Of a DNA stretch of 28,919 bases, positions 15 to 28,919 are shown piece after piece (the stretch's first letter is position 1; each line of letters opens with the position of its first letter). The position numbers were made by a program, and so were the translations under genes. This DNA is from a virus: positions 1 to 28,919 of IMG/VR virus record IMGVR_UViG_3300025889_000691. One strand, given 5' to 3'. The notes beneath the pieces are model-generated. The model was not told the DNA's origin, did not search any database, and saw nothing but the letters and a program-made list of their open reading frames with translations.

Positions 15-302
15 AACCTTTATATACCCTCGGTACCGTACCAGAACCTTTATATACCCTCGTTCAAACACAACCTTTATATACCCTAGTTTTGTGCCTG
101 ATGGTTGTACACCACGCTATATTAAGGTTATGTATATAAAAAATAAAATAAAAACCTTTAAATACCCTTGTCGCACCCACAGGGGGGGTATTTATAGGTA
201 TCGAACGTCCACAATATAAAACATTTAATGCTGTTATTATTGGTTATAGTAGTGATTATAGTGTATTGATACAGATGAGGGATCGAAACCTTTTTAAACC
301 CT
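15..302 (+). repeat. Five direct copies of AACCTTTWWAWACCCT
   Basis: Three copies of AACCTTTATATACCCT are identical, at 15-30, 45-60 and 72-87, spaced 30 and 27 bp (close to three helical turns). Two diverged copies follow: AACCTTTAAATACCCT at 153-168 and AACCTTTTTAAACCCT at 287-302. All point the same way. The substitutions keep the centre pure A/T and the CC/CCC flanks constant, as expected for a protein-bound site. The centre matches the archaeal TATA consensus. No other full copy was noticed in the window. Confidence 0.8.
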
Positions 303-358: not shown

Positions 359-1612
359 ATGCCGAATTCAAACACGACTAACACGTGCTCTTCCTATATG
401 GATGATCACGCTGTAGGTGTATCTCTTGGGTTGATGCATGGTATCTATCCTTATGATAGAGACCTATCTATATCCATAGAGAGAACATCAAAAGGATTAG
501 AGGTATATGTAGGAAGCCAATATATATCTCACATGATAGAACTACTCAATCTATCACAAGACAATAAACCAAAACAATATCCTGAAATGTATTATGACAC
601 ATGCTCTGCTTATAGTGTAGATGATGAGAATACCCACTACATGGGTTATCTATTTACTGGTAGAGAATCATATTCAAGAATTGCTATGCCATTCTTATAT
701 GATATGGATATGTCAAAGGTCACACATTGTATATATACAATACCTATCCCAGATAGTATGTATCCTAAGATACGTAGACAGATTGTTGATGCATTGGTGG
801 AATTCATGGATAGCATAACAAGATACCATATAAGAAAGTATGTTATTGCCACCGAACAACCATTGAGATGTTCTACTGGTTCTGCCTCACCATCCATTAC
901 TAGAAAGTTGAAGCCATTGAATGGTGCACAATACGACCCAGTTGATGGATCTATTAGCAAAAAGATTACTGGTGTTAATCTATGTGCTGTAGAGATTGAG
1001 GGTGGTTGGTTGAGACGACCATCTGGTGTGTACAGAGATGGTTCTGTTACAGTAGATTTACCACGTTGCACATGCAATAGTGATGATGAAGCTCCATGTG
1101 AAGGATGCCACGCTATTAGAGGAGAAATAAACTGTAAGCCACAAAAACTGTCTAATGTATTAGATTACGTTGACGAACACTATCCTGACTTTATGGACTC
1201 TTCATGTGGTATACATATCCATGTATCATTCAGTGAGGATCTACTGTCATACAGTAAGTTAATGTCCCCCAAGTTTTGGAGATACTTCCAGAAGAGTATG
1301 CATGATTGGGGTGTTAGAAATAACATCAATCCAAACAGTAGATTCTGGAAGAGATTGAATGGAGATAATCGATTCTGTAAGAAAAGATTCCAACCAATTA
1401 AACAATACATGCTGGAGTACAAAGATAGTGCCAGATATACGCAGTTGAATTACTGTTGGAAACAGCATGGTACATTGGAGTGCAGGGTATTACCTACATT
1501 CAATCAGGCACGTATAGCCAAGAGTGCTATCGCAGAGTTTATGAATATAATAAACTCATACCTAGCCGACAACATTGAAGAGTATCAATACACAAGCGAG
1601 GTGTTAGTATAA
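359..1612 (+). CDS. Amidoligase_2-type carboxylate-amine ligase
   Basis: This 417-aa protein is a likely ATP-dependent amidoligase of the glutamine synthetase / gamma-glutamylcysteine synthetase fold (Amidoligase_2-like), which joins a carboxylate to an amine through an acyl phosphate. Visible family motifs are VEIEGGW (211-217), DGSV (228-231), SCGIHIHVSF (282-291, metal/ATP-binding His), RYTQLNY (359-365) and GTLECRVLP (371-379). Residues 1-200 form an extra N-terminal part that I do not recognise. A Cys-rich insert, CTC...CEGC (237-250), lies inside the catalytic region and could bind metal. The stop overlaps the next start as TAATG, so the glutamine amidotransferase is translationally coupled. 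Members of this family have been predicted to make peptide-like tags or modify proteins or cell-wall peptides. The substrate here is unknown. Family assignment is fairly sure. Confidence 0.75.
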   Translation: MPNSNTTNTCSSYMDDHAVGVSLGLMHGIYPYDRDLSISIERTSKGLEVYVGSQYISHMIELLNLSQDNKPKQYPEMYYDTCSAYSVDDENTHYMGYLFTGRESYSRIAMPFLYDMDMSKVTHCIYTIPIPDSMYPKIRRQIVDALVEFMDSITRYHIRKYVIATEQPLRCSTGSASPSITRKLKPLNGAQYDPVDGSISKKITGVNLCAVEIEGGWLRRPSGVYRDGSVTVDLPRCTCNSDDEAPCEGCHAIRGEINCKPQKLSNVLDYVDEHYPDFMDSSCGIHIHVSFSEDLLSYSKLMSPKFWRYFQKSMHDWGVRNNINPNSRFWKRLNGDNRFCKKRFQPIKQYMLEYKDSARYTQLNYCWKQHGTLECRVLPTFNQARIAKSAIAEFMNIINSYLADNIEEYQYTSEVLV

Positions 1613-2436
1613 TGTGTGTCATCATACTAGCAGAAGATAAGTTCCCAACATTGGATACTCTCAAGAACGCAGAGGCATTGAATGGACATGGTGGTAGTAT
1701 TGCATGGGTTGAAAAACAATCCACTGTTAGATACTACAAGAACATATCAGCAGATGAGATGCACACAATCATTGAGACACAGGCACAACTACCTGCTATC
1801 ATTCACTTCCGTATCGCATCTATTGGTGGTGTTGATCCATTGTTATGTCATCCATTCCCAATCACTAGTGATAGTGAACTAGCATTGGATGGAGAGGAAC
1901 AAGCAGTGCTATTCCACAATGGTACATGGAGTGACTACAAAGATGTATTACTACAGGCTGTGTTGTCAGGTAAAGTTGCTGTACCAGATGGTGCACTATC
2001 AGATAGTAGAGTCATGGCATTACTAGCCAATGCATACGGACACAATGTGTTATCATTGATACCACAGAATAATAAGATAGCCATTCTTACTCCAGATGGT
2101 ATCAAGAAGTATGGTCTTGGTTGGATTGATGTAGACAAGAACACATGTTCTAATGCATACTTCGTACCATCAAAAGAGACCAAAACAAAATCCAAGAAAC
2201 TATCCAAGAAAGATAGAAGGAAATTGGCACGTGCATCACAGGGACTACCACCAATCAGTGGGAGTAATACAAACTGGTGGACATTTGGTAATGAAATGGA
2301 CGAGGATGATATTGACGACACTGCCACAGAAGAAACCATCATGGAGTGGGAAGAGGAATTGACAGCAGATGAATACGCTTACTTGTGGAACACAAGACAT
2401 GCTGACTTTTATCCAAAAGGAAAGGTTGACTACTAA
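1612..2436 (+). CDS. Class II glutamine amidotransferase
   Basis: This 274-aa protein is an Ntn-fold glutaminase domain that would release ammonia from glutamine for a partner enzyme. Cys2 directly after the initiator Met is the expected nucleophile after Met removal. Other GATase-II motifs are HFRIAS (65-70), HPF (80-82), FHNGTW (101-106) and SDSRV (about 128-132). The domain ends near residue 185. A charged tail follows, Lys-rich and then Glu/Asp-rich, unlike typical stand-alone members. There is no fused synthase, transaminase or QueC domain, so the ammonia acceptor must be another protein. The amidoligase just upstream, with a TAATG stop-start overlap, is the obvious partner: together they could amidate a carboxylate or supply an amine. 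The fold is well supported; the reaction is inferred. Confidence 0.8.
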   Translation: MCVIILAEDKFPTLDTLKNAEALNGHGGSIAWVEKQSTVRYYKNISADEMHTIIETQAQLPAIIHFRIASIGGVDPLLCHPFPITSDSELALDGEEQAVLFHNGTWSDYKDVLLQAVLSGKVAVPDGALSDSRVMALLANAYGHNVLSLIPQNNKIAILTPDGIKKYGLGWIDVDKNTCSNAYFVPSKETKTKSKKLSKKDRRKLARASQGLPPISGSNTNWWTFGNEMDEDDIDDTATEETIMEWEEELTADEYAYLWNTRHADFYPKGKVDY

Positions 2437-2783
2437 TGCCATTGAGTAGAGAGAGATCTATTAGAAATCAGGCTAGGGCTATGGTAGTACTAGTAGAAGA
2501 AATGATAGACCATAAGATACTCCAACGTGGTACAACCAAGGGATCTGTGATGTTCACAGTAGATTTCCTTGACAATGTTTTGGATTACTGGGCTATGCAT
2601 GTGGATTCAATGCCAGAACAGTATAAGACATTGGATGATAGAATGGAGATGGCTAAGGTAGTCATAAAGATAATGGAAAGAGAATATCTGATACATGATA
2701 GGACACAGAAAGCAGAGTTTACTGCATACGTGTGTACCATGATAGCAGATTTCATCAACAGGAGACATGGTAGTAATGATTAA
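2436..2783 (+). CDS. Hypothetical helical protein of the amidoligase operon
   Basis: This 115-aa protein is not recognised. It looks almost entirely helical, with a basic N-terminus (RERSIRNQAR) and alternating hydrophobic and acidic stretches. There is no signal peptide, membrane segment or metal motif. The start overlaps the amidotransferase stop as TAATG, so it belongs to the same transcript and is probably made in proportion to it. An accessory or substrate protein of the amidoligase module is possible but unsupported by any motif. Confidence 0.7.
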   Translation: MPLSRERSIRNQARAMVVLVEEMIDHKILQRGTTKGSVMFTVDFLDNVLDYWAMHVDSMPEQYKTLDDRMEMAKVVIKIMEREYLIHDRTQKAEFTAYVCTMIADFINRRHGSND

Positions 2784-2958
2784 GAGAATCAATGACTATC
2801 TATACTCTTGTGACAGTAGGTCAGAACCCAAACACCCACACTATCTGTGGTTTGAAAAAGAAAACAACAGATGGTATTGTGATTGCAAGGGCTATGCATA
2901 TCGTGAGATATGTAGACACTACACAGAACTAGTAGAGGGGTTTAAGAAACAAACATGA
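2767..2958 (+). CDS. Small SWIM-type zinc finger protein
   Basis: This 63-aa protein carries WYCDCKGYAYREICRHY (36-52): C-x-C-x8-C-x-H, the SWIM zinc-finger signature. SWIM domains bind DNA or protein and occur in recombination-linked and transposase-like proteins. Here it forms nearly the whole protein. ATG 2767 overlaps the previous gene by 17 bp; ATG 2776 (MIKRIN) would leave 8 bp and is equally likely. Its stop overlaps the next start as ATGA. Role unknown; adaptor or DNA-binding is the likely class. Confidence 0.7.
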   Translation: MVVMIKRINDYLYSCDSRSEPKHPHYLWFEKENNRWYCDCKGYAYREICRHYTELVEGFKKQT

Positions 2959-3263
2959 AAGCAAACAAACACACAAAATATTTGATCAATGCATTAGAGT
3001 ATGCTGACAACAAAACATACTCCTATGGTTGTCCCTACCTAGCACTAGCAGATGTGCTAGGGTATACAACCCCTTATAATATCCACCATCTACCACAGCG
3101 TTTTGATAGATTATCAATGCGTGAGATGCTTTTAACTAATGGGATAGGTAGGCATCAATCGCATAGAGTCTATGCTATGATAGAGGGTGGATATACATTG
3201 AGTGAGATAGCAGAAGAGATGAGAAACATCTATGACTACAGAGGAGTGATGAGAGTAGTATGA
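2955..3263 (+). CDS. Hypothetical protein with a possible helix-turn-helix
   Basis: This 102-aa protein is not assigned to a family. The last third, GYTLSEIAEEMRNIYDYRGVMR (about 78-99), has the spacing of a helix-turn-helix (x-T-L-S-E-I-A-E-E-M), suggesting DNA binding. The rest is helical with His/Tyr-rich turns. ATGA overlaps at both ends place it in the middle of the coupled operon. A virus-encoded regulator is plausible, but the HTH is judged by eye only. Confidence 0.6.
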   Translation: MKANKHTKYLINALEYADNKTYSYGCPYLALADVLGYTTPYNIHHLPQRFDRLSMREMLLTNGIGRHQSHRVYAMIEGGYTLSEIAEEMRNIYDYRGVMRVV

Positions 3264-3763
3264 ATATATTTGCTCTCCATGAATCCACAAGGGCATGTGC
3301 TCAAATGCATTGTGATAAGCATGTAGTAAAGATGATACTGGAATCAGGACAGATAATGTGTACTGTCCACCACAAGTTTCCAAATAAAAAATTGGAATAC
3401 ACAATACCATACAAACCAACACATGTTAATCATCCATGTGTGTTATGGACTCAATCATCATTGGGTAATTACATTTGGTTATACAATCTAACCAAACATC
3501 TCAATGATGAATACAGGCATAGATACAACAGGACATTCAACCATAAGACATGGGATGCTGTAAAGGATTTGCCTTACCCATCCATACCAACAACTGGTAT
3601 GACACCATGGGCTAGGGCTATGCCTGATGAGTATAAGATAGATACTCATGAGGATAGGAAACAGAATGTCATAGAGTCATACCGTAAGTACTACATACTT
3701 GGTAAGCAATCCCTACTCCACTATACCAATAGGGAGAGACCATACTGGATGGAGCAGGGCTGA
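3260..3763 (+). CDS. Conserved phage-type protein with HCDKHVVKM motif
   Basis: This 167-aa protein begins MNIFALHESTRACAQMHCDK and continues HVVKMILESGQIM, then has HVNHPCVLWTQSSLGNYIWL and AMPDEYK. I recall the same succession of motifs (N-terminal MNIF, HCDKHVVKM, NHPC.-W, AMPD.Y) from an uncharacterised protein widespread in T4-like and marine phages. The His/Cys/Asp cluster near residues 17-20 and the Trp/Tyr-rich middle suggest a nuclease- or glycosylase-like active site, but I know of no proven function. Its start overlaps the previous stop as ATGA. It is the last gene of this operon. Confidence 0.65.
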   Translation: MNIFALHESTRACAQMHCDKHVVKMILESGQIMCTVHHKFPNKKLEYTIPYKPTHVNHPCVLWTQSSLGNYIWLYNLTKHLNDEYRHRYNRTFNHKTWDAVKDLPYPSIPTTGMTPWARAMPDEYKIDTHEDRKQNVIESYRKYYILGKQSLLHYTNRERPYWMEQG

Positions 3764-5072: not shown

Positions 5073-5298
5073 AGTGAACAAAATAAAAAAATGTAATGTC
5101 GTGACAGGACATGATGAAAAAACAAAACAAAGTATAGTATGTACGAATGAAGCAATCGCTACATATAAATGTGTCATCAAAGTAGAAAATGATGGCAAAG
5201 AAATTGTCAGTGATGTTCATGTATGTGAACAACATAAGAGACACTTTCAAGACCAATTAAAGGAGCAAGAAGAATATGAAAGAAAAAAATACATTTAG
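5065..5298 (+). CDS. Small Cys/His zinc protein upstream of the AAA+ ATPase
   Basis: This 77-aa protein begins at GTG 5065, overlapping the previous stop by 8 bp; GTG 5074 is an alternative. Cysteines at KCNV, SIVCTNEA, YKCVIK and VHVCEQHKRH give a spaced C-C-C-CxxH set, as in small treble-clef fingers. The C-terminus is a charged helix (DQLKEQEEYERKK). Its last 23 bp overlap the start of the AAA+ gene. Function unknown. Confidence 0.6.
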   Translation: MIRVNKIKKCNVVTGHDEKTKQSIVCTNEAIATYKCVIKVENDGKEIVSDVHVCEQHKRHFQDQLKEQEEYERKKYI

Positions 5299-6184
5299 TG
5301 GAACTCCAACATCGCCAATAGACTTTGATCAATATGATCCAAAGAACTTGGTTGATTGGGGTACATACAAAGAAATAGGAGATGAGATGAAACTCCTTGA
5401 AGCAAACATCTATGGAGATGGTATGCCATATCTAATAGAGGGAGATAAAGGTCTAGGTAAAACCTTGATGGTTCATACAGTATGTAGAAAGAATGGATTC
5501 CCATTACTTGAATACAGTTGTTCAAATGGAACTAACAAGGGAGACTTGATTGGTAGATTACAAATCAATGACCATGGTTCTTTCTTTGAGTTAGGCATAC
5601 TTCCAACAGGATATGAAATAGCAAATCACTTTGGTATGTGTGTTGTATATCTTGATGAAATAAATTCAATGGATCATGAGGTAATGAAACTATTGAATAG
5701 ACCTACTGATAAAAGAAGATCAGTATATGCAAACGGTAAGGTATACAAACTCAACAAGGGATGTAAGTTGGTATTCGTAGCAACAATGAACCCAATCACT
5801 TATGCAGGAGTTAATTCTCTTACAGAAGATTTGAGAAGTAGATTCATTGGAGATATAATAACATACCCAACTTCCAAACAACTAGAGGAAATAATTGATT
5901 GGACAATCATACCAGAAGAAGAAGTAAAGAGACCACTCTTACAACTAGCACAGGAATCAAACGCCTTGAGAATTAAAGGAGATGTCGATTATGTGTTATC
6001 TCCAAGAGATATTGATCAACTATGTAGTTACTACAGAAGTTTATCAAAAGGAACAATGATGTCAGATGCAACCAAGATTCTCAAATATGCATTGAAACAA
6101 GTAGTGCTTGTCAAATATGCAGAGATTGAGGAGAGGGAACTAATGAAGTCAAGGATAACTGAAATCTTTGGGGTTGAACTCTAG
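5276..6184 (+). CDS. MoxR/CobS-type AAA+ ATPase
   Basis: This 302-aa AAA+ protein is of the dynein-related/MoxR/CobS class. Walker A is GDKGLGKT (56-63), Walker B VVYLDE (123-128), sensor 1 region ATMNP (169-173) and arginine finger LRSRF (186-190). Length and motif order match single-domain MoxR/CobS ATPases. Such enzymes remodel or assemble targets together with a VWA-domain partner, and that partner is the next gene, coupled by a TAGTG stop-start overlap. CobS-like genes have been reported in viruses of marine thaumarchaea. Nothing here shows a link to cobalt insertion, as no CobN subunit is present. An AAGGAG stretch lies before the ATG, but within the upstream gene. Confidence 0.85.
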   Translation: MKEKNTFSGTPTSPIDFDQYDPKNLVDWGTYKEIGDEMKLLEANIYGDGMPYLIEGDKGLGKTLMVHTVCRKNGFPLLEYSCSNGTNKGDLIGRLQINDHGSFFELGILPTGYEIANHFGMCVVYLDEINSMDHEVMKLLNRPTDKRRSVYANGKVYKLNKGCKLVFVATMNPITYAGVNSLTEDLRSRFIGDIITYPTSKQLEEIIDWTIIPEEEVKRPLLQLAQESNALRIKGDVDYVLSPRDIDQLCSYYRSLSKGTMMSDATKILKYALKQVVLVKYAEIEERELMKSRITEIFGVEL

Positions 6185-7860
6185 TGGCTAGAGATAGAGA
6201 AATACTATCAGATAAAGAGATGATGAGAAGTGTGTTAGATATTGTAGAATATCTAACTCAATCTCATATCACTCTTACAACCTATGAGGGAGATAACTAT
6301 GTGAAACTAGATGCTAAAAATAATTTTACAATGAATATAGCAAGTCCTGCTGTAAAGAACATTGATAAATATACTGCCTTTGCACATGAATGTGGACACA
6401 TACTAGGTCATAGTCCAATACAAATTGCTCAAGGATTAATTAAATCTTGGTGTACTGATGCAGATACATTTATGGCTAGAGTAAGATATGAAATGTACTG
6501 GAACTCTTTTAACATATTAGAAGATCAAAGGATTGAATATATTATTGGTAGAATATGGAGATTAAACAAACAAAGGTTTGAGAAAACAAGACAGAAGATA
6601 GGAATTACAATGACTACTGCTACCAATCCTGTCCAAGAATTATTATCAACTAGATTCTACAGAGAGGATTTAGTAAAGAGTAAAAGAAAAAAAGATATTA
6701 TATCTGCAATAAAAAATGTAGAGGGAACAGGAAGTAGAGGTGCTTTAAGAATATTAGGAATCATTAAACCTATACTAGATGAATGGTTTGATGAGCAAAA
6801 AAATGAGAAAGACATAAAGGGATTAAACAATATAGATAATCCTAATACGACAAGTCAAACAGATATGGCAGAAGTGCTAGTAAGTTCTTCAAAGATTAAA
6901 GAAACTAATAAAGAGGAACTAGATGAAGAAATAAAGAAAATACAATCAGAGATAGACAAATCATCTGATATTACAGAAGAAAAGAAAGACCTTGAAGCAC
7001 AGTTTGAATCCTTTGAAAAGAAACTAGCAGAGATAGAAAAGCCACAGATGAGAAGAGAGTTTATCAGCATACCAAGACAAGGATACGCAGAGAAGTATCA
7101 AAACTATGAACATATTGAGAAATCATTGAAAGGTTTATTGAGAAAAATAAACGAAAGATATGCTGAAAAGATTGACTACATTGGAGAAGAGGTAGACGTT
7201 GAAACATACGTTGAAAACAAGGCACAGAAAAAAGATGTAACAAGATCAATGCGAAATAAAAAAATGGATAAAGGTTTGTCAATAGTTCTTGCTATTGATT
7301 GCTCTGGTTCAATGTCAAAGTATGAAAGAATAAACAAAGCAAAGTCATTGGTCTATACAATATACAAAGCAGTTGAAAACAATCCAAGAGTAGATGTCAA
7401 GGCTATAATGTGGGCTTCAAGTGCAAGAGGTAAAGTAGGAATCACAGAGATAGACAGTATAAAGTCTATTGATAAGATAAGAATAGCAGATGGATATGTG
7501 CTTACCCCTACACATCTAGCATTGGAATATTCAGCAGATGCTTTGAACAAAATGAAAGGAAGAAAGAAACTTCTAATCATGATTACTGATGGTATACCAG
7601 AATACAAATCAAACAACTTTGCTATACCATTGGGAAATCTGATAAAAATGACAAAGAAATCACTTCAATATGCTAGGAGATTAGTACCAGATGTCGCAGT
7701 ATTTCTTGTTGGAATACAGGGAAATTATAGAGTTACACAGCCAAAAAAAGTAATGAAAGACATATTCGGCAACAGAGTTGTTGTATGTAATGACATGAAT
7801 AGTGCTGTCGAAAACGTTATTAAACAGATGAAACAAGTGATTGTGAGGTCATTGTATTGA
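6184..7860 (+). CDS. Metallopeptidase-like / VWA-domain protein (CobT/DUF2201-like)
   Basis: This 558-aa protein starts at GTG 6184, overlapping the ATPase stop. Residues 1-150 contain AFAHECGHILGH with HECGH at 68-72, a HExxH zincin motif, and NILEDQRIE (110-118), which resembles the conserved LEDxR segment of CobT and VWA-metallopeptidase proteins and may give the third ligand. Residues 220-350 are a Lys/Glu-rich coiled-coil linker. The C-terminal VWA domain has the MIDAS motif DCSGSM (372-377), Thr at 441-443 and ITDG (467-470). The pairing AAA+ plus VWA is the classic MoxR/VWA or CobS/CobT machine. The unusual part is an apparently intact peptidase site in a viral version. A role in protein maturation, virion assembly or host remodelling is inferred. 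Confidence 0.8.
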   Translation: MARDREILSDKEMMRSVLDIVEYLTQSHITLTTYEGDNYVKLDAKNNFTMNIASPAVKNIDKYTAFAHECGHILGHSPIQIAQGLIKSWCTDADTFMARVRYEMYWNSFNILEDQRIEYIIGRIWRLNKQRFEKTRQKIGITMTTATNPVQELLSTRFYREDLVKSKRKKDIISAIKNVEGTGSRGALRILGIIKPILDEWFDEQKNEKDIKGLNNIDNPNTTSQTDMAEVLVSSSKIKETNKEELDEEIKKIQSEIDKSSDITEEKKDLEAQFESFEKKLAEIEKPQMRREFISIPRQGYAEKYQNYEHIEKSLKGLLRKINERYAEKIDYIGEEVDVETYVENKAQKKDVTRSMRNKKMDKGLSIVLAIDCSGSMSKYERINKAKSLVYTIYKAVENNPRVDVKAIMWASSARGKVGITEIDSIKSIDKIRIADGYVLTPTHLALEYSADALNKMKGRKKLLIMITDGIPEYKSNNFAIPLGNLIKMTKKSLQYARRLVPDVAVFLVGIQGNYRVTQPKKVMKDIFGNRVVVCNDMNSAVENVIKQMKQVIVRSLY

Positions 7861-8375: not shown

Positions 8376-8555
8376 ATGTGCACAGGAAATTGTGATTTTT
8401 TTGAGAGGAAATCTAAGGATAGATTTCATTATTGTCAAGATTGTGGTAAACGTGTAGGAGAAAGTAATACTTATAAAGAGAAGCAATATGGTAGACTCAG
8501 ATGCTCATGTTGCAATGGTTTGGTAAGAACAAAATACATAGTGTACAAGGTATGA
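8376..8555 (+). CDS. 59-aa Cys-rich zinc-finger miniprotein
   Basis: ORF read directly from ATG 8376 to TGA 8553-8555. Cysteines fall at residues 2, 6, 20, 23, 43, 45 and 46, with CQDCGKR and CSCCNG as the clearest knuckles, a zinc-ribbon pattern with extra ligands. Its stop overlaps the start of the cyclotransferase-like gene as ATGA, which supports both. Unrecognised; likely a nucleic-acid- or protein-binding zinc domain. Confidence 0.55.
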   Translation: MCTGNCDFFERKSKDRFHYCQDCGKRVGESNTYKEKQYGRLRCSCCNGLVRTKYIVYKV

Positions 8556-8848
8556 ATGTTTTTGTTTATGGTACTCTTATGAGAGACGACATAAGAGATT
8601 CAATACTAGGAAAAATAACTTATTGGGAAGAAGATTCTTTAGATGGATTTACAAAGGAAATGCACCCAGATTTACCTTATCCATGTATATTTAATAAAAA
8701 AGATTCAACTGTATATGGTATAAGATTTAAAGCAGATGAAGAGGATCTAAAAAGACTCGATAGATATGAAACTGAATTTTATAAAAGAATAATTGTAAAA
8801 TTAAATAGTGGAGAAGAAAGTTTTGTTTACGTGGAAAACTTAGATTAA
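8552..8848 (+). CDS. Gamma-glutamylcyclotransferase-like (AIG2/GGCT) protein
   Basis: This 98-aa protein has the start fixed at ATG 8552 because family members begin with MxVFVYGTL; an upstream in-frame TTG is less likely. VYGTLM (5-10) is the substrate loop. LDRYETEFYKR (about 77-87) carries the Glu conserved in AIG2-like cyclotransferases. The fold cleaves gamma-glutamyl amides, releasing 5-oxoproline, as in GGCT or BtrG. In known amidoligase gene sets a cyclotransferase of this type removes or trims a gamma-glutamyl group. This protein could act on the product of the amidoligase at 359-1612, about 7 kb away. That link is inference. Confidence 0.75.
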   Translation: MNVFVYGTLMRDDIRDSILGKITYWEEDSLDGFTKEMHPDLPYPCIFNKKDSTVYGIRFKADEEDLKRLDRYETEFYKRIIVKLNSGEESFVYVENLD

Positions 8849-9073
8849 AAATTCGTCAGCCCACGCCATAAAATAAATAGTTTTTTCTTCTTGATCTTCA
8901 TCCATTTCTTCACCACATACACCGATAGCGTGATGAATTAATTCGTGTTGTATTGTTCTATAAACATCTGTTAATGACTCATGGTTGTTCAAAAATATTA
9001 AAACCCTTTGACTTGATGGGTAATAAATACCAGATTCATTCTTTCCGAATACCTTAAAGTCTACAGTTACCAT
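8840..9073 (-). CDS. Minimal HExxH metallopeptidase-like protein
   Basis: This 77-aa protein has QHELIHHAIG (about 42-51), a HExxH zinc-binding helix in a short zincin-like fold (strand-rich N-terminus, then the active helix). EEMDEDQEEKTIYFMAWADEF follows and offers a third acidic ligand. At this length it lacks the domains of ordinary peptidases; it may be an SprT-like or toxin-like minimal zincin. Its 3' end overlaps the convergent cyclotransferase gene by 9 bp. A TATA box (TTATAAAT, 9097-9104 region) lies 27 bp upstream, implying a leaderless mRNA. Confidence 0.65.
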   Translation of the reverse strand: MVTVDFKVFGKNESGIYYPSSQRVLIFLNNHESLTDVYRTIQHELIHHAIGVCGEEMDEDQEEKTIYFMAWADEFLI

Positions 9074-23381: not shown

Positions 23382-24149
23382 CTAGTACTTAAAGTTTTTC
23401 TCGTATATATTCATTGATTTACACATTGGCATAAATAATAATGCAAATGGTATTTTCATTAATGAATAGTATTCAGAATTAACAACATCTTCTTCTTTAA
23501 CATTTATTTTTTCCATATACTCTTTATATTTTTGACAGTTGTATCTTAACATTGGAATCATACCTTTACCTTTTTCTCCAAAGAACATTGATGTAGTTGA
23601 ATTATTATTCCATACTTCTGTTTTCTTTGACATAGCAGCAGAGATCCATGCACTAGTATCTAAACTTTCAAACTTAGTACCACGCCCAATGTAACTACCT
23701 TTTGCTAATCCATGAAATTTTAATGGTGGTAGTTTTCTCATTTGATCTTCAGTTTCAAGTTTACCTTTAATTTCTCCTAGGCAAATATAATCATCTTTGT
23801 TAGGTTTAAGCAAACTTAGATGATTAAGATAGTTCTCCTGTAATACAGGTAAAGTCCAATCTATACCCATCTCTCTTTCTTTTTTATACCACTTCATTGT
23901 TTCAGCCATATTATAGAATACATCAAACTGAGTAGCATGGTCATAGTTTTCCCTGTGTTTCTTTAACAGTTCATGATACCTATCTGCTTCAGTTCCTATA
24001 CCTGCAACTACAAATATGCTTTCAAATTTATCTCTAAATTTAGTGATATTTGCGTATGAGTATTTAAATGATAACATAACATTCTTAACACCACACTCTG
24101 CAAGTGTTTCTAAGTGGGCTTTGTTGTTAGCGTTAAAGTATATCTTCAT
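23382..24149 (-). CDS. TGT/DpdA-like base-exchange enzyme candidate
   Basis: The start is placed at ATG 24149 (MKIYFNANNKAH), leaving a 17-bp overlap with the nuclease gene; an upstream Met at 24206 is less likely. The 255-aa chain reads like a TIM barrel: MKIYFNANN, CGVKNVMLSFKY, SIFVVAGIGT, FDVFYNMAE, GIDWTLPVLQ, YICLGEIKG, LKFHGLAKGS and FESLDTSAWISAA. The last two, H-G-L-x-x-x-S and [F/Y]-x-S-x-D-[ST]-[ST]-x-W, are what I associate with tRNA-guanine transglycosylase relatives and phage DpdA, which swap guanine for a 7-deazaguanine in DNA. Host archaea make preQ0 for archaeosine, so substrate could come from the host. No deazaguanine synthesis gene is in the window. The family call is plausible, not proven. 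Confidence 0.5.
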   Translation of the reverse strand: MKIYFNANNKAHLETLAECGVKNVMLSFKYSYANITKFRDKFESIFVVAGIGTEADRYHELLKKHRENYDHATQFDVFYNMAETMKWYKKEREMGIDWTLPVLQENYLNHLSLLKPNKDDYICLGEIKGKLETEDQMRKLPPLKFHGLAKGSYIGRGTKFESLDTSAWISAAMSKKTEVWNNNSTTSMFFGEKGKGMIPMLRYNCQKYKEYMEKINVKEEDVVNSEYYSLMKIPFALLFMPMCKSMNIYEKNFKY

Positions 24150-24906
24150 CCCATGTCTCTCTATTATCTTCGAAGCACATGGTTGCGTATGGACAGAACC
24201 CATCACATAGGTAGTTTTTTACCCTAGGTGGTAAAGTTTTATTTGTAAGCGAGTCTTTAATCTCTCTTGATTTTACTATCATATCCTCTAATGTTTCTTC
24301 TATTGGTGCTAGTTTGAATGGTAGACATGATGGTTTATCTCTTGTTTCTTTATCTACTGCATTTGATATGTATATTACACAGCCATAATCTGCATCAATA
24401 TCATAGCATTTTTTAAGTAATACTCTATATCTATTGATTTGGTCTACATGTGATTCACTTGGTTTGGATGTAGACTTACTGAAATATGCAATAGATCCAG
24501 TTGTTTTCTTATCACAGATAACATATTTACCGTCTATCTCTACCACATCATCAATAGAACCATAGATAATATCCAAATGTCTAGGATCATCTACAGGTAT
24601 TTTTAGTGCTTCTTCCCTTGTTAATGCCTCATCTCTAACATAGTCGTATGCTAGAAACATCTCATGGAACTCTGGTTTTGCAACCATAGATGCTGAGTGT
24701 ATTGCTTGACCAAAGTATAATGATCTCATATCTTCAGTATTCATACCACTTGCAGGTAAAGTCTTTTTATATATTACATTACGCATACATGGTTTAATAA
24801 TATCTGATACATGTATTACTCCTAACCTTTCTGTTTTCATGGCTTCCACTTGTGCTTTTCTAAAAGCAAAATAAACTTCATTTGATATATCTTGTAATTT
24901 TAACAT
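24133..24906 (-). CDS. Cas4/RecB-like PD-(D/E)XK nuclease with Fe-S cysteines
   Basis: This 257-aa protein has conserved Cys40 in SDIIKPCMRN, FGQAIH (65-70), GSIDDVVEI (116-124, Asp119), VICDKKTTG (129-137, catalytic D-x-K), QINRY (156-160) and C-terminal CDGFCPYATMC (234-244). Four Cys (40, 234, 238, 244) reproduce the 4Fe-4S pattern of Cas4 and AddB-type exonucleases. No cas1, cas2 or repeat array is near, so this is a viral recombination or end-processing nuclease, as seen in other archaeal viruses. ATAAAAACG (24928-24937) is the likely TATA box, 26 bp upstream. It is co-transcribed with the TGT-like gene. Confidence 0.82.
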   Translation of the reverse strand: MLKLQDISNEVYFAFRKAQVEAMKTERLGVIHVSDIIKPCMRNVIYKKTLPASGMNTEDMRSLYFGQAIHSASMVAKPEFHEMFLAYDYVRDEALTREEALKIPVDDPRHLDIIYGSIDDVVEIDGKYVICDKKTTGSIAYFSKSTSKPSESHVDQINRYRVLLKKCYDIDADYGCVIYISNAVDKETRDKPSCLPFKLAPIEETLEDMIVKSREIKDSLTNKTLPPRVKNYLCDGFCPYATMCFEDNRETWDEDIL

Positions 24907-24939
24907 AATATTTATATGATGTTCTGTAATAAAAACGTT
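24907..24939. promoter_or_regulatory. Interleaved divergent promoters
   Basis: ATATTTATA (24908-24916) is centred 27 bp upstream of the plus-strand ATG at 24940. AATAAAAACG (24928-24937) is centred about 26 bp upstream of the minus-strand ATG at 24906. Each TATA box overlaps the other gene's transcription start, so the two directions should compete. Confidence 0.5.
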
Positions 24940-25644
24940 ATGCCTAGCATGGTTTGTAGAGCAGTTGTTTGGAATACTGGTAAGGCAGAATTTGCATCTG
25001 TTTCAACTGATGCTAATAACATTATTCAAGCTGATAAAAACTTTGGATTCTTAAAGCCAACTAACGGAGTATTGACTTTTAGTATTAGTAATAGAGATGG
25101 AGAAATTACTGATAAAGCAGTTGACAGGGCTGTTAAATTTGCGTTAAAAGAATGGAGTATTTTTGTCCCAATTCAATTTAAGAAAGTACCGAAAGACGGA
25201 GATATTAGAATAGAATTTAGATCAGAAGATGAAGATGAGATATTAAATAGTAACACTCTTGCCTATATGTATTATCCATTAGGTGGTAAAACTGATGGAC
25301 AATGTGTAATTAATACTAGATTTTATTGGACTAATCATGGTAATGGAGTTGATATGAATAAGATTGATCCAGTTCATTATAGACCTGACAGTGGAACTAA
25401 AGGTACTTCATGGGATTTAGACCAAGTATTAAGACATGAGTTTGGTCATGGTATATTTGGATTACCACATGATCCAAACACAAATCATATAATGAGTAGT
25501 AATTATAGTAAAATGAAAGAACATTTAAGTGAAGTAGATATATTAAGAGCACAGGCTAAAGCAGGTACTAGAGTTTTAAATGCTAATATGGTAAAACGTC
25601 TATTAACATGGATTACTAAAGCCAGTGATAGAGATTATAACTAG
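24940..25644 (+). CDS. Matrixin-like zinc metalloprotease
   Basis: ATG 24940 (MPSMVCRAVVWN) fits the TATA spacing; an earlier in-frame ATG at 24919 lies too close to the TATA box. The 234-aa protein has the metzincin site VLRHEFGHGIFGLPHD (163-178): HExxHxxGxxH followed by Asp, and a Met-turn IMSSNY (184-189). The upstream part, AVDRAVKFALKEWSIFVPIQF, matches the helix and strand that open matrixin catalytic domains. No clear signal peptide or prodomain is present, so it is probably virion-borne or intracellular. It could digest host surface protein during entry or exit, or process capsid proteins. Confidence 0.85.
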   Translation: MPSMVCRAVVWNTGKAEFASVSTDANNIIQADKNFGFLKPTNGVLTFSISNRDGEITDKAVDRAVKFALKEWSIFVPIQFKKVPKDGDIRIEFRSEDEDEILNSNTLAYMYYPLGGKTDGQCVINTRFYWTNHGNGVDMNKIDPVHYRPDSGTKGTSWDLDQVLRHEFGHGIFGLPHDPNTNHIMSSNYSKMKEHLSEVDILRAQAKAGTRVLNANMVKRLLTWITKASDRDYN

Positions 25645-25784: not shown

Positions 25785-26137
25785 TAGTATGATTCCTCTA
25801 ATACAAATTTAAATGATTTTGTTTGTTCTGTCATTTGACCACTTGAATTTTTAAGTTCAATCTCACTTTCCCATACTCCTGCATTGGCTATTGCTGTATC
25901 ACTATCTGTTAATTGATATGAGACTATTCCATTAGGTCTATTATCATAAGTAATATCTCCATTTATAATAAGAGTTCCATCTGGTTTCCATACTTTCCAT
26001 TTACCAGTTGCATAAGTAGTATCATCATTTAAGTTCTTTACAGTACCATCATCATCTTTAATGGTCATAGTGAGTACTGATCTAGCACCTGCTTTAACAC
26101 GAAATTCTACTGCATTACCTACCATATAACTACTCAT
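25784..26137 (-). CDS. BppU-N-like baseplate/tail domain protein
   Basis: This 117-aa protein is a single beta-sandwich. FRVKAGARSVLTMTIKDDDG, then KWKVWKPDGTLIINGDITY, GIVSYQLTDSDTAIANAGVW and ESEIELKNSSG follow the layout of the phage BppU N-terminal domain (xGDx...dG...kPDG...G.v.Y.L...D....G.y..eiel). In BppU this domain attaches receptor-binding proteins to the tail. The start overlaps the stop of the long repeat protein as ATGA, so the two are made together and may assemble together. Confidence 0.65.
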   Translation of the reverse strand: MSSYMVGNAVEFRVKAGARSVLTMTIKDDDGTVKNLNDDTTYATGKWKVWKPDGTLIINGDITYDNRPNGIVSYQLTDSDTAIANAGVWESEIELKNSSGQMTEQTKSFKFVLEESY

Positions 26138-28919
26138 TGTTTCTCTATGTCCTCTCTTTCTTTATAAAGATTTATGTCCTTGGTATTATCATTTGTGCTT
26201 GTTGATTTAGTCTTATCATTTACCTCTGCATCTTTATCAGAATCTTCTACTTCTGCTGATTTAGAAGAATCTTCTACTTCTGCTGATTTAGAAGTATCAT
26301 TGACTTTCAAGAAAGCACTGTTTATATAGGATTTTAATGATTTGTCTCTTAATGCTTCCTCTATTTCTTTGCTTATATCGTGTAATTCTAATACCAATGT
26401 TCTTGCATTTGTACCGATAGTATTTGATACTCTGTGGAAACCGTATCTTACCAATACGATAAATGCTTCTGCTATGAATATTGATTCTATTATTGATAAT
26501 ATTCTTCCTCTTATGTATAATGCAAATGATGCTATTGCTATAGATTCTTCTACAACTCTGATGATTGTTCTTTGTAATCCTCTGAATGTAGCGATGGTTA
26601 TTACATCTGCAACTATGGCTAGTCTTGATCTGAACAATGTAACAGTTTCTACTAGTTGTATTGTATCTCCAACTATTCTTATTATATCTCTTGATAGTCC
26701 TCTGAATGTGTCTACTGATACTATATCTGATACTGCTCTTGCAAGTGCTCTTACTCTTATGATTGATTCAGTTATTCCAACGATTTCAGATACAATTCTA
26801 TTGAGTAATCTGACTCTAATTACTGCTTCTACTAATAATACAGAGTCGCTTGAGACTCTAATTATATTTCTAGCGAGTCCTCTGAATGTATCGATTGCTA
26901 CTATATCTGATACGATTCTTACCAATGTTCTGATTCTTATTATTGATTCTAATACTTCTAATGTGTCTACAACTGCTCTTACCAATGTTCTTATTCTTAC
27001 GATTGTTTCTACAGTTGATACTACATCTGATAGTATTCTTGTTAGTTCTCTTGCTCTTGATACAGTTTCAACTAATTCTACAATCTCAGATACAACTCTT
27101 GCTAAGAATCTAACTCTTACAACTGCTTCAGATAATGCTATCGAGTCTTGTAGGACTCTGATTATATTTCTAGCGAGTCCTCTGAAAGTGTCTATAGATA
27201 CTGTATCTGCAACTGCTCTTGCCAATGCTCTGACTCTTACTATTGATTCTACGATTGATACAACATCTGATACAATTCTTGTCAATACTCTTACTCTTAC
27301 GATTGACTCTAGTATACCTGTAATCTCTGTTTGTATTCTTATCAATGTTCTAACTCTTACTATTGATTCTAATGCTTGAACTGATTCTGATACTGCTCTA
27401 ACTATGTTTCTTGCAGTTCCTCTGAACGTATCAATGCTTACTGTATCTAATACAATTCTTACCAATGGTCTTATTCTTAGAACTGATTCAGATATTGACA
27501 CAATTTCAGATACAATTCTATTCAATACTCTAACTCTTACGATTGATTCTAATGCATTAACTGAATCTGATACAACTCTGATAAGTGTGAATACTCTAAA
27601 TGCTGATTCTGTAATGGATACAATGTCAGATATTATTCTGTTGATTAGTCTAACTCTTACAACTGATTCAACTACAGATACAATCTCAGATAATACTCTA
27701 GTAATTGTTCTAACTCTTACTATGGATTCAGTTACAGATACTAATTCTGATAGCACCCTTACCAATTCTCTAGCAGTACCTCTGAATGTATCGATTGATA
27801 CAGTTTCAGATATGATTTTAATTAGTGTAAATACCTTTATTGTTAATTCTGTAATTGATACAACTTCAGATACAATTCTATTTAGAACTCTAACTCTTAC
27901 TAATGATTCTGCTAATGAGATACTGTCAGATATGATTCTAACTATTTGTCTAGCAGTTCCTCTGAATGTGTCAATAGATACTGTATCTACTAATACTCTG
28001 ATCAATGATCTTATTCTTAATACTGATTCTGTTAGTTCTACTGAATCTACAACTGCTCTTACAAGTGTTCTTATTCTTAATACTGATTCTGTGATAGATA
28101 CAATATCTGAGACAATTCTGTTCAGTACTCTTATTCTTACTATTGATTCTGTGGATAGTATTGATTCTGATAATACTCTTGATAGTATTCTTACTCTGGA
28201 TACTGTTTCTATTATTGATACTATGTCTACTGTGATTCTGTTTAATACTCTTACTCTTAATACTGACTCTGTTAATACTATTGAGTTTATGATTACTCTG
28301 GATAGTATTCTTACTCTGGATACTAATTCTACTATTGATACTGAGTTTACTATTGCTCTTACCAACACTCTTGTTCTTACGATTGATTCTGTTAATGCTA
28401 TAGTATCGGATATGATTCTTACAATGTTTCTTGCTGTACCTCTGAATGTGTCTATTGAAACGGTATCTGTTAGTATTCTTACCAGTGTTCTGATTCTTAC
28501 GATTGACTCGGTTGCAGATACAATCTCTGATAACACTCTTGATAATGCTCTTACTCTTATTACTGATTCAGCAAGTGATACTGTATCTACTATTGCTCTG
28601 ACAATGTTTCTTGCAGTACCTCTGAATGTATCTATGGATATAGAGTCTACTATTACTCTTACTAATGGTCTTGCTCTTAGAACTGATTCTGCTACATTTA
28701 CAATATCTGAGACAATTCTATTGAGTATTCTTATTCTTACCAATGATTCTGCTAATCCAACTACATCACTGATAATTCTAACAATGTTTCTAGCAGTTCC
28801 TCTAAAGGTATCTATTGATACAATAGCATTGTATACTCTTACTAATGCTCTTACTCTTAATACAGATTCAGTTAATGTAATACTATCTGCAATTATTCTT
28901 ACAATATCTCTGGATAATC
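26134..28919 (-). CDS. Giant 20-residue-repeat protein, 5' end outside the window
   Basis: The reading frame is open from the window edge to TGA 26134-26136, giving 927 visible residues; the true start lies beyond 28919, and the TTG at 28741-28743 is only an internal codon. Most of it is an uninterrupted 20-residue repeat with consensus near RIVSDIVSITESVLRVRVLN. A second type (SIDTFRGTARNIVR) recurs ten times at irregular spacing. About 41 units are visible. The C-terminal 130 residues leave the repeat: a hydrophobic helix region, then charged 9-residue repeats (EVEDSSKSA), ending EREDIEKQ. No signal peptide is visible because the N-terminus is missing. Hydrophobic residues in a fixed rhythm suggest a fibrous solenoid or rod. 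The ATGA coupling to a BppU-like gene suggests a tail fibre, adhesin or rod. Function is inferred. Confidence 0.82.
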   Translation of the reverse strand, partial: LSRDIVRIIADSITLTESVLRVRALVRVYNAIVSIDTFRGTARNIVRIISDVVGLAESLVRIRILNRIVSDIVNVAESVLRARPLVRVIVDSISIDTFRGTARNIVRAIVDTVSLAESVIRVRALSRVLSEIVSATESIVRIRTLVRILTDTVSIDTFRGTARNIVRIISDTIALTESIVRTRVLVRAIVNSVSIVELVSRVRILSRVIINSIVLTESVLRVRVLNRITVDIVSIIETVSRVRILSRVLSESILSTESIVRIRVLNRIVSDIVSITESVLRIRTLVRAVVDSVELTESVLRIRSLIRVLVDTVSIDTFRGTARQIVRIISDSISLAESLVRVRVLNRIVSEVVSITELTIKVFTLIKIISETVSIDTFRGTARELVRVLSELVSVTESIVRVRTITRVLSEIVSVVESVVRVRLINRIISDIVSITESAFRVFTLIRVVSDSVNALESIVRVRVLNRIVSEIVSISESVLRIRPLVRIVLDTVSIDTFRGTARNIVRAVSESVQALESIVRVRTLIRIQTEITGILESIVRVRVLTRIVSDVVSIVESIVRVRALARAVADTVSIDTFRGLARNIIRVLQDSIALSEAVVRVRFLARVVSEIVELVETVSRARELTRILSDVVSTVETIVRIRTLVRAVVDTLEVLESIIRIRTLVRIVSDIVAIDTFRGLARNIIRVSSDSVLLVEAVIRVRLLNRIVSEIVGITESIIRVRALARAVSDIVSVDTFRGLSRDIIRIVGDTIQLVETVTLFRSRLAIVADVITIATFRGLQRTIIRVVEESIAIASFALYIRGRILSIIESIFIAEAFIVLVRYGFHRVSNTIGTNARTLVLELHDISKEIEEALRDKSLKSYINSAFLKVNDTSKSAEVEDSSKSAEVEDSDKDAEVNDKTKSTSTNDNTKDINLYKEREDIEKQ
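26240..26293 (-). repeat. Perfect 27-bp tandem repeat (two copies)
   Basis: 26240-26266 and 26267-26293 are identical. They encode consecutive copies of a 9-residue acidic/Ser/Lys unit in the C-terminal tail of the repeat protein, with diverged copies on either side. Confidence 0.85.
26461..28919 (-). repeat. About 41 tandem 60-bp units, no phase slip
   Basis: The same 60-bp phase is held from 26461 to the window end without a single inserted or lost base. Units of the FRG type begin at 26581, 26701, 26881, 27181, 27421, 27781, 27961, 28441, 28621 and 28801, separated by 2, 3, 5, 4, 6, 3, 8, 3 and 3 units. Individual units differ at many synonymous and some amino-acid positions, so this is an old, selected array rather than a fresh expansion. 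Confidence 0.9.

Follow-up and report, generated by a model that had tools for sequence, protein, structure and literature searches.

A predicted amidoligase and glutamine amidotransferase pair encoded by a virus with a most likely archaeal host

Introduction

Modules of an amidoligase and a glutamine amidotransferase (GATase), in some cases with a cyclotransferase, are widespread in phages, where they have been explained for more than 10 years as cell-wall modification against superinfection. A pair of this kind is found at positions 359 to 2436 of the virus record IMGVR_UViG_3300025889_000691 from IMG/VR (the whole analysed stretch of 28,919 nucleotides is called the window), and the host of this virus is most likely an archaeon. 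The question raised by this locus is what such enzymes could modify in such a host. An initial annotation, made from the sequence alone, regarded the pair as the start of a six-gene operon (359-3763) and as a strong candidate for an undescribed system of amide-linked modification. The features at the center of the analysis are the following:

359-1612, plus strand: Amidoligase_2-type ligase of 417 aa (profile-profile comparison, fold and conservation)
956-1609, plus strand: GS/GCS-fold catalytic domain of the ligase, residues 200-417 (model, PDB comparison and conservation)
1612-2436, plus strand: class II (N-terminal nucleophile, Ntn) glutamine amidotransferase with Cys2 as nucleophile (alignment, tree and a relative above the Pfam cut-off)

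Results

Identity of the ligase

By profile comparison and modelling, the product of 359-1612 is a glutamine-synthetase (GS)-fold amidoligase, with a predicted activity. Its identity could be settled because its relatives provided a profile match, a fold and invariant residues. The alignment of 23 archaeal-type proteins matched that of 94 bacterial-type Amidoligase_2 proteins in hhalign with a probability of 98% (P = 4e-14), while a reversed decoy gave P = 0.03 and eight unrelated families gave 0.12-0.65. Several of the bacterial-type ligases found upstream of the same GATase exceeded the Pfam cut-off for Amidoligase_2 (PF12224).

The Amidoligase_2 hallmark residues (ExE, Asp, CGxHxH and (L/M)ExR) are present in the window ligase, as are the CGIHIHVS and GTLECR motifs reported by the initial annotation and the further motifs VEIEG, DGSV, GEIN and RYTQLNY, which it did not name. 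Two observations were to count against its assignment. The first, loss of the catalytic residues in homologues, was not seen, since E212, E214, D227, S229, E256, H286, H288, R332, Q349, R359, Y360, N364, T372, E374 and R376 were invariant in all 23 ligases. The second, lack of a match to amidoligase profiles, is literally the outcome of a single-sequence Pfam scan, and was overturned by the profile-profile and fold comparisons.

The N-terminal ~190 residues are common only to the closest relatives, and the GS-fold catalytic domain spans approximately residues 205-405. A model of the full-length ligase was poor (pLDDT 55), and the catalytic domain was then modelled with a deeper alignment, reaching a pLDDT of 90. 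Comparison by VIA-align, restricted to candidates supplied by Foldseek, showed GS/GCS-like ligases in 50 of the 50 matches listed (best Z 10.7, 160 aligned residues, 3.2 A); the Foldseek E-values for this domain were suggestive (2.5e-3). The catalytic-domain fold is thus the one of glutamine synthetase and of the GCS2-like carboxylate-amine ligase YbdK, although identity was 9-16% over the aligned residues and the match was confined to this domain.

Many relatives carry Cys-rich inserts inside the catalytic domain, which in some of the L002-L006 ligases contain CxC/CxxC motifs and reach ~150 residues, and which probably bind zinc. The window ligase and those of L001, L070, L067 and L069 have a long N-terminal extension instead.

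The amidotransferase and its coupling to the ligase

The product of 1612-2436 shows the class II GATase hallmarks, namely a Cys immediately after the initiator Met, HFR, HNG and the Asp pocket. The Cys2, HFR and HNG motifs named by the initial annotation, together with SDxR, were invariant in an alignment of 12 homologues (12/12), and these positions include R67, N103-G104 and D131. The GATase of one relative (L012) exceeded the Pfam cut-off with 28.8 bits. In the GATase tree, 19 archaeal-type virus GATases, including that of the window, formed a single supported set (99/94); two loci (L013 and L110) that had initially been classed as archaeal-type from their ligases fell outside this set and lacked MCM.

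The TAA codon of 359-1612 and the ATG of 1612-2436 have one A in common. The TAATG overlap of the initial annotation was therefore confirmed, and the fusion that it had described was ruled out, as these are two separate, translationally coupled open reading frames (ORFs).

Relatives were collected by GATase scans, which yielded 13 and then at least 80 viral contigs, as well as 47 bacterial genome loci. Since only the GATase was used to recruit the loci, the presence of a ligase is a fair test of coupling, and a ligase was found directly upstream of the GATase in nearly all of them. An automatic rule (ligase at -400 to +300 nt from the GATase) recovered the pair in 112 of 130 loci; inspection added 6 with mis-set GATase starts or partial or broken ligases, and ~5 of the remainder were contig edges. 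The ligase-then-GATase order was thus present in ~118 of 125 informative loci, near-duplicate contigs included.

The pair is common in Verrucomicrobiota genomes (L021-L065), where it probably belongs largely to prophages; one IMG/VR provirus (L099) appears to correspond to the locus of Chthoniobacter flavus (L033). These Verrucomicrobiota pairs (L021-L065, L099 and others) have the same gene order and spacing as the window, with GATases ~31-44% identical over the matched segments. They differ in the absence of the small helix-turn-helix (HTH)-like gene described below, and no cyclotransferase was found in the bacterial-type virus records tested.

Host of the virus

The host is most likely archaeal, as judged from gene content, because of the MCM, TerL and RadA genes of the window and the presence of MCM throughout its clade. 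Matches to MCM in the phage collection were archaeal viruses in 16 of 16 cases, the best TerL match was Halogranum tailed virus 1, and RadA had its best matches in haloarchaeal viruses. MCM was present in all 12 of the clade records G000-G005 and G014-G019, and in 0 of 6 bacterial-type records tested. A single GATase scan of genome contigs returned only bacterial matches, the 47 loci mentioned above, and the thaumarchaeal affiliation suggested by the initial annotation is a guess. No tRNA gene or Rfam family was found in the window (1-28,919).

Cyclotransferase and small HTH-like gene

Two additional genes were associated with the pair in the archaeal-type clade:

8552-8848, plus strand: AIG2/GGACT-type gamma-glutamyl cyclotransferase (PF06094, E = 5e-14)
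2955-3263, plus strand: HTH-like small protein of 102 aa with CPYLALAD and P..F.RLS motifs (recurrence downstream of the GATase)

The cyclotransferase gene, overlooked by the initial annotation, passes the PF06094 cut-off (53.3 versus 22.8 bits) and matches an AIG2-like protein in PDB (3.5e-5). Its catalytic Glu (LDRYE) was invariant in 13 of 13 sequences. The gene was found in 11 of 15 archaeal-type clade records versus 0 of 15 other records tested, which is circumstantial evidence that it belongs to the module. In phage C75C1 a GATase is fused to a cyclotransferase, with an Amidoligase_2 gene upstream. A small IrrE/M78-like metallopeptidase gene (8840-9073, minus strand; weak match) is convergent with the cyclotransferase gene and usually adjoins it in relatives.

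The CPYLALAD gene lies 0-661 bp downstream of the GATase, often overlapping it, in 10 of the 19 archaeal-type loci with enough flank, in addition to the window, and was absent from the bacterial-type loci examined. The HTH assignment of the initial annotation had no library match above cut-off, while the gene itself is a recurrent neighbour of the pair.

Comparison with phage cassettes

The novelty claimed for the locus was too strong, because its chemistry is that of a known, predicted phage module: published annotations and discussions of the same pair exist for many phages (LUZ24, tf, phiEco32, RIO-1 and OM43 phages). In phiEco32, LUZ24, tf and RIO-1-like phages these enzymes form a "peptidoglycan modification" cassette proposed to block superinfection (PMC5498523, PMC11945000, PMC3890496, PMC10580990), a proposal traced to Iyer 2009 and Hardies 2013 as cited in PMC5498523 and PMC11945000. 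An Amidoligase_2, a class II GATase and an AIG2-like cyclotransferase are combined in one virus in these phages (phiEco32, LUZ24/PaP3, tf, RIO-1 and PSA-HP1) as in the window, and in both cases the genes are placed among early/replication genes. The cassette is associated with hosts that have peptidoglycan, whereas the archaeal-virus clade carries archaeal hallmark genes indicating a murein-free host, a distant cyclotransferase gene and an extra clade-specific small gene.

The COOH-NH2 ligase (PF14395) was detected in none of 17 virus records, with LUZ24 as a positive control, the window being a fragment and most relatives measuring 30-63 kb. RimK/ATP-grasp ligases were found neither among the window proteins in the Pfam scans nor adjoining the pair, with no dedicated search made.

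The OM43 phages MEP401 and MEP402 also encode a two-gene amidoligase-GATase pair with overlapping ORFs (PMC10580990), and the MEP401 ligase likewise has a CxxC-rich stretch; they differ in their bacterial host and in a GATase identity of just ~22%. A literature search, with subscription papers outside its reach, found no description of an amidoligase in archaeal viruses. What is new with respect to the accessible literature is the module in archaeal tailed viruses, without a COOH-NH2 ligase and with a small gene seen only in archaeal viruses.

Discussion

Proposed reaction and alternative explanations

The explanation that we favour, at somewhat better than even chances, is that the virus encodes a glutamine-dependent amidoligase that forms an amide on a substrate other than murein; peptidoglycan would be excluded because the host is taken to be an archaeon. 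The amide-linked modification of the initial annotation thus stands as the best reading, in the form of a scheme whose ammonia channelling, direction, substrate and benefit to the virus we infer. ATP would be used by the GS-fold ligase to activate a carboxylate, and ammonia would be freed from glutamine by Cys2 of the co-translated class II glutaminase; addition of this ammonia (or of an amine) by the ligase would give an amide, or else a linkage of the gamma-glutamyl type. Gamma-glutamyl amides would be trimmed or recycled by the distal cyclotransferase. Candidates for the substrate are small metabolites of viral or host origin, carboxylates on proteins and uronates of S-layer glycans.

Several observations weigh against this explanation. 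Taken singly, 359-1612 had no significant match in Pfam, PHROGs, NCBIfam or PDB sequences: its score for PF12224 was 10.3 bits in a loose search, versus a curated cut-off of 22, and direct hmmscan gave no match; a hidden Markov model of the bacterial-type ligases gave nothing significant (E = 4), and a scan of viral contigs with the ligase alone recovered no relative. The GATase too was under the Pfam GATase_6/GATase_4 cut-off (PF13522, E = 4.6e-4, 20.7 versus 27 bits). The cyclotransferase gene lies 6 kb from the pair and is missing in some clade records (G004 and G014), the host may be a methanogen bearing pseudomurein, and no biochemistry on any member of the module was found in the accessible literature.

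A different division of labour is possible, if unlikely: the ligase would attach an amine or a glutamyl/peptide tag by an isopeptide bond, and the Ntn enzyme and the cyclotransferase would remove it, with no feeding of ammonia. Class II GATases are indeed Ntn hydrolases, the wording of Pfam and Iyer 2009 reportedly being that of a GATase-like thiol peptidase; the cyclotransferase family cleaves gamma-glutamyl amides, and the C75C1 fusion joins the two putative hydrolases. However, the invariant glutamine-pocket residues (R67, N103-G104 and D131) favour glutamine as the substrate, and a strict ligase-GATase coupling is typical of synthetase/glutaminase subunits.

A named target, compatible in its chemistry with the favoured glutamine-dependent amidation, would be the S-layer glycan, changed for superinfection exclusion by, for example, uronic acid amidation. 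Archaeal N-glycans can bear amidated or amino-acid-linked uronates, and surface modification is what the phage literature proposes, but the window proteins that were scanned included no recognisable glycosyltransferase or sugar-nucleotide enzyme, and we consider this target rather improbable. A role in base modification was also considered; enzymes that modify nucleobases were not seen in the scanned set of window proteins, with no systematic search made.

That the virus modifies peptidoglycan or pseudomurein exactly as proposed for phiEco32 appears very improbable. The enzyme families are identical, and the Verrucomicrobiota that carry the pair in their genomes are bacterial hosts; against this, the replication and packaging genes of the window are archaeal, archaea are described as lacking peptidoglycan in PMC5744192, and a search for the pseudomurein-binding repeat (PMBR) gave nothing above cut-off. 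A resemblance to amidoligases by chance motifs, which would fit the lack of single-sequence library matches, is a negligible prospect, already contradicted by the profile match with clean decoys, the GS fold, the invariant residues and the conserved partner.

Tentatively, and at well under even chances, the favoured glutamine-dependent amidation can be extended to a conserved archaeal-virus system of three genes (for the amidoligase, the glutaminase and the CPYLALAD protein, plus a distal cyclotransferase) whose product would be an amide specific to the virus, on a target other than murein. If this were true, the core of the phage "peptidoglycan modification" module would act in all viruses on a different substrate that does not depend on the domain. 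The conservation of catalytic residues in viruses of peptidoglycan-free archaea is a direct argument for a substrate common to bacteria and archaea, or for a flexible target. The two-gene core is small enough for in vitro testing.

Other features of the window

Operon genes and upstream elements

The six ORFs assigned to 359-3763 were all present, overlapping head to tail. The remaining genes and the upstream elements are:

2436-2783, plus strand: helical protein, an operonic orphan with no homologue in related loci
2767-2958, plus strand: weak SWIM-like zinc finger protein, adjoining the pair only in the closest relatives
3260-3763, plus strand: Pyr_excise (PF03013, E = 3.6e-6)/phrog_624 (E = 2.6e-51) protein, located elsewhere in L003 and L082
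330-337, plus strand: TATA-box-like TTTATAAA, 29 nt ahead of the ligase start codon (ATG)
15-167, plus strand: four perfect copies of AACCTTTAWATACCC preceding the operon

As a set, the operon genes of the initial annotation held up in part, the HTH-like gene being the only recurrent partner of the pair. The helical protein is probably not part of the module, and the SWIM assignment was weak (PF04434, E = 0.01, under cut-off). The protein described by its HCDKH motif lies in the operon as claimed, and is not a module member, as the Pyr_excise/phrog_624 gene is also found away from the pair. None of the three genes (helical, SWIM and Pyr_excise) was thus kept as a module member.

The spacing of TTTATAAA would suit an archaeal transcript without a leader that begins at the ligase. 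With up to 2 mismatches, AACCTTTAWATACCC had 6 matches versus 0.12 expected; these TATA-like repeats extend over 15-301, several of them ~27-30 bp apart. The array was also found upstream of the pair in L067-L069 (8222-8406 in L067), and similar arrays, apparently inverted, lie upstream of the ligase in L001 and L070. A promoter cluster, an operator or origin iterons are candidates for its function.

Other genes

A MoxR-like AAA_5 ATPase gene (5276-6184) adjoins a gene for a vWA protein (6184-7860) whose N-terminal part has a metallopeptidase-like HExxH motif (AHECGHILGH), an arrangement conserved in archaeal-type relatives; a similar one is known in group 2.2 jumbo phages (PMC7824862). The window also encodes a PD-(D/E)XK nuclease that weakly resembles Csa1 (24133-24906, minus strand) and a matrixin-like metalloprotease (24916-25644; PF00413, E = 7.3e-19; HEFGHGIFGLPHD). 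At its end, a very long, open-ended protein (26134-28919, minus strand) contains degenerate repeats (VRIISDxVSIxESxxRVRxLxR / SIDTFRGTARNIVR), and is possibly a virion fibre or adhesin.

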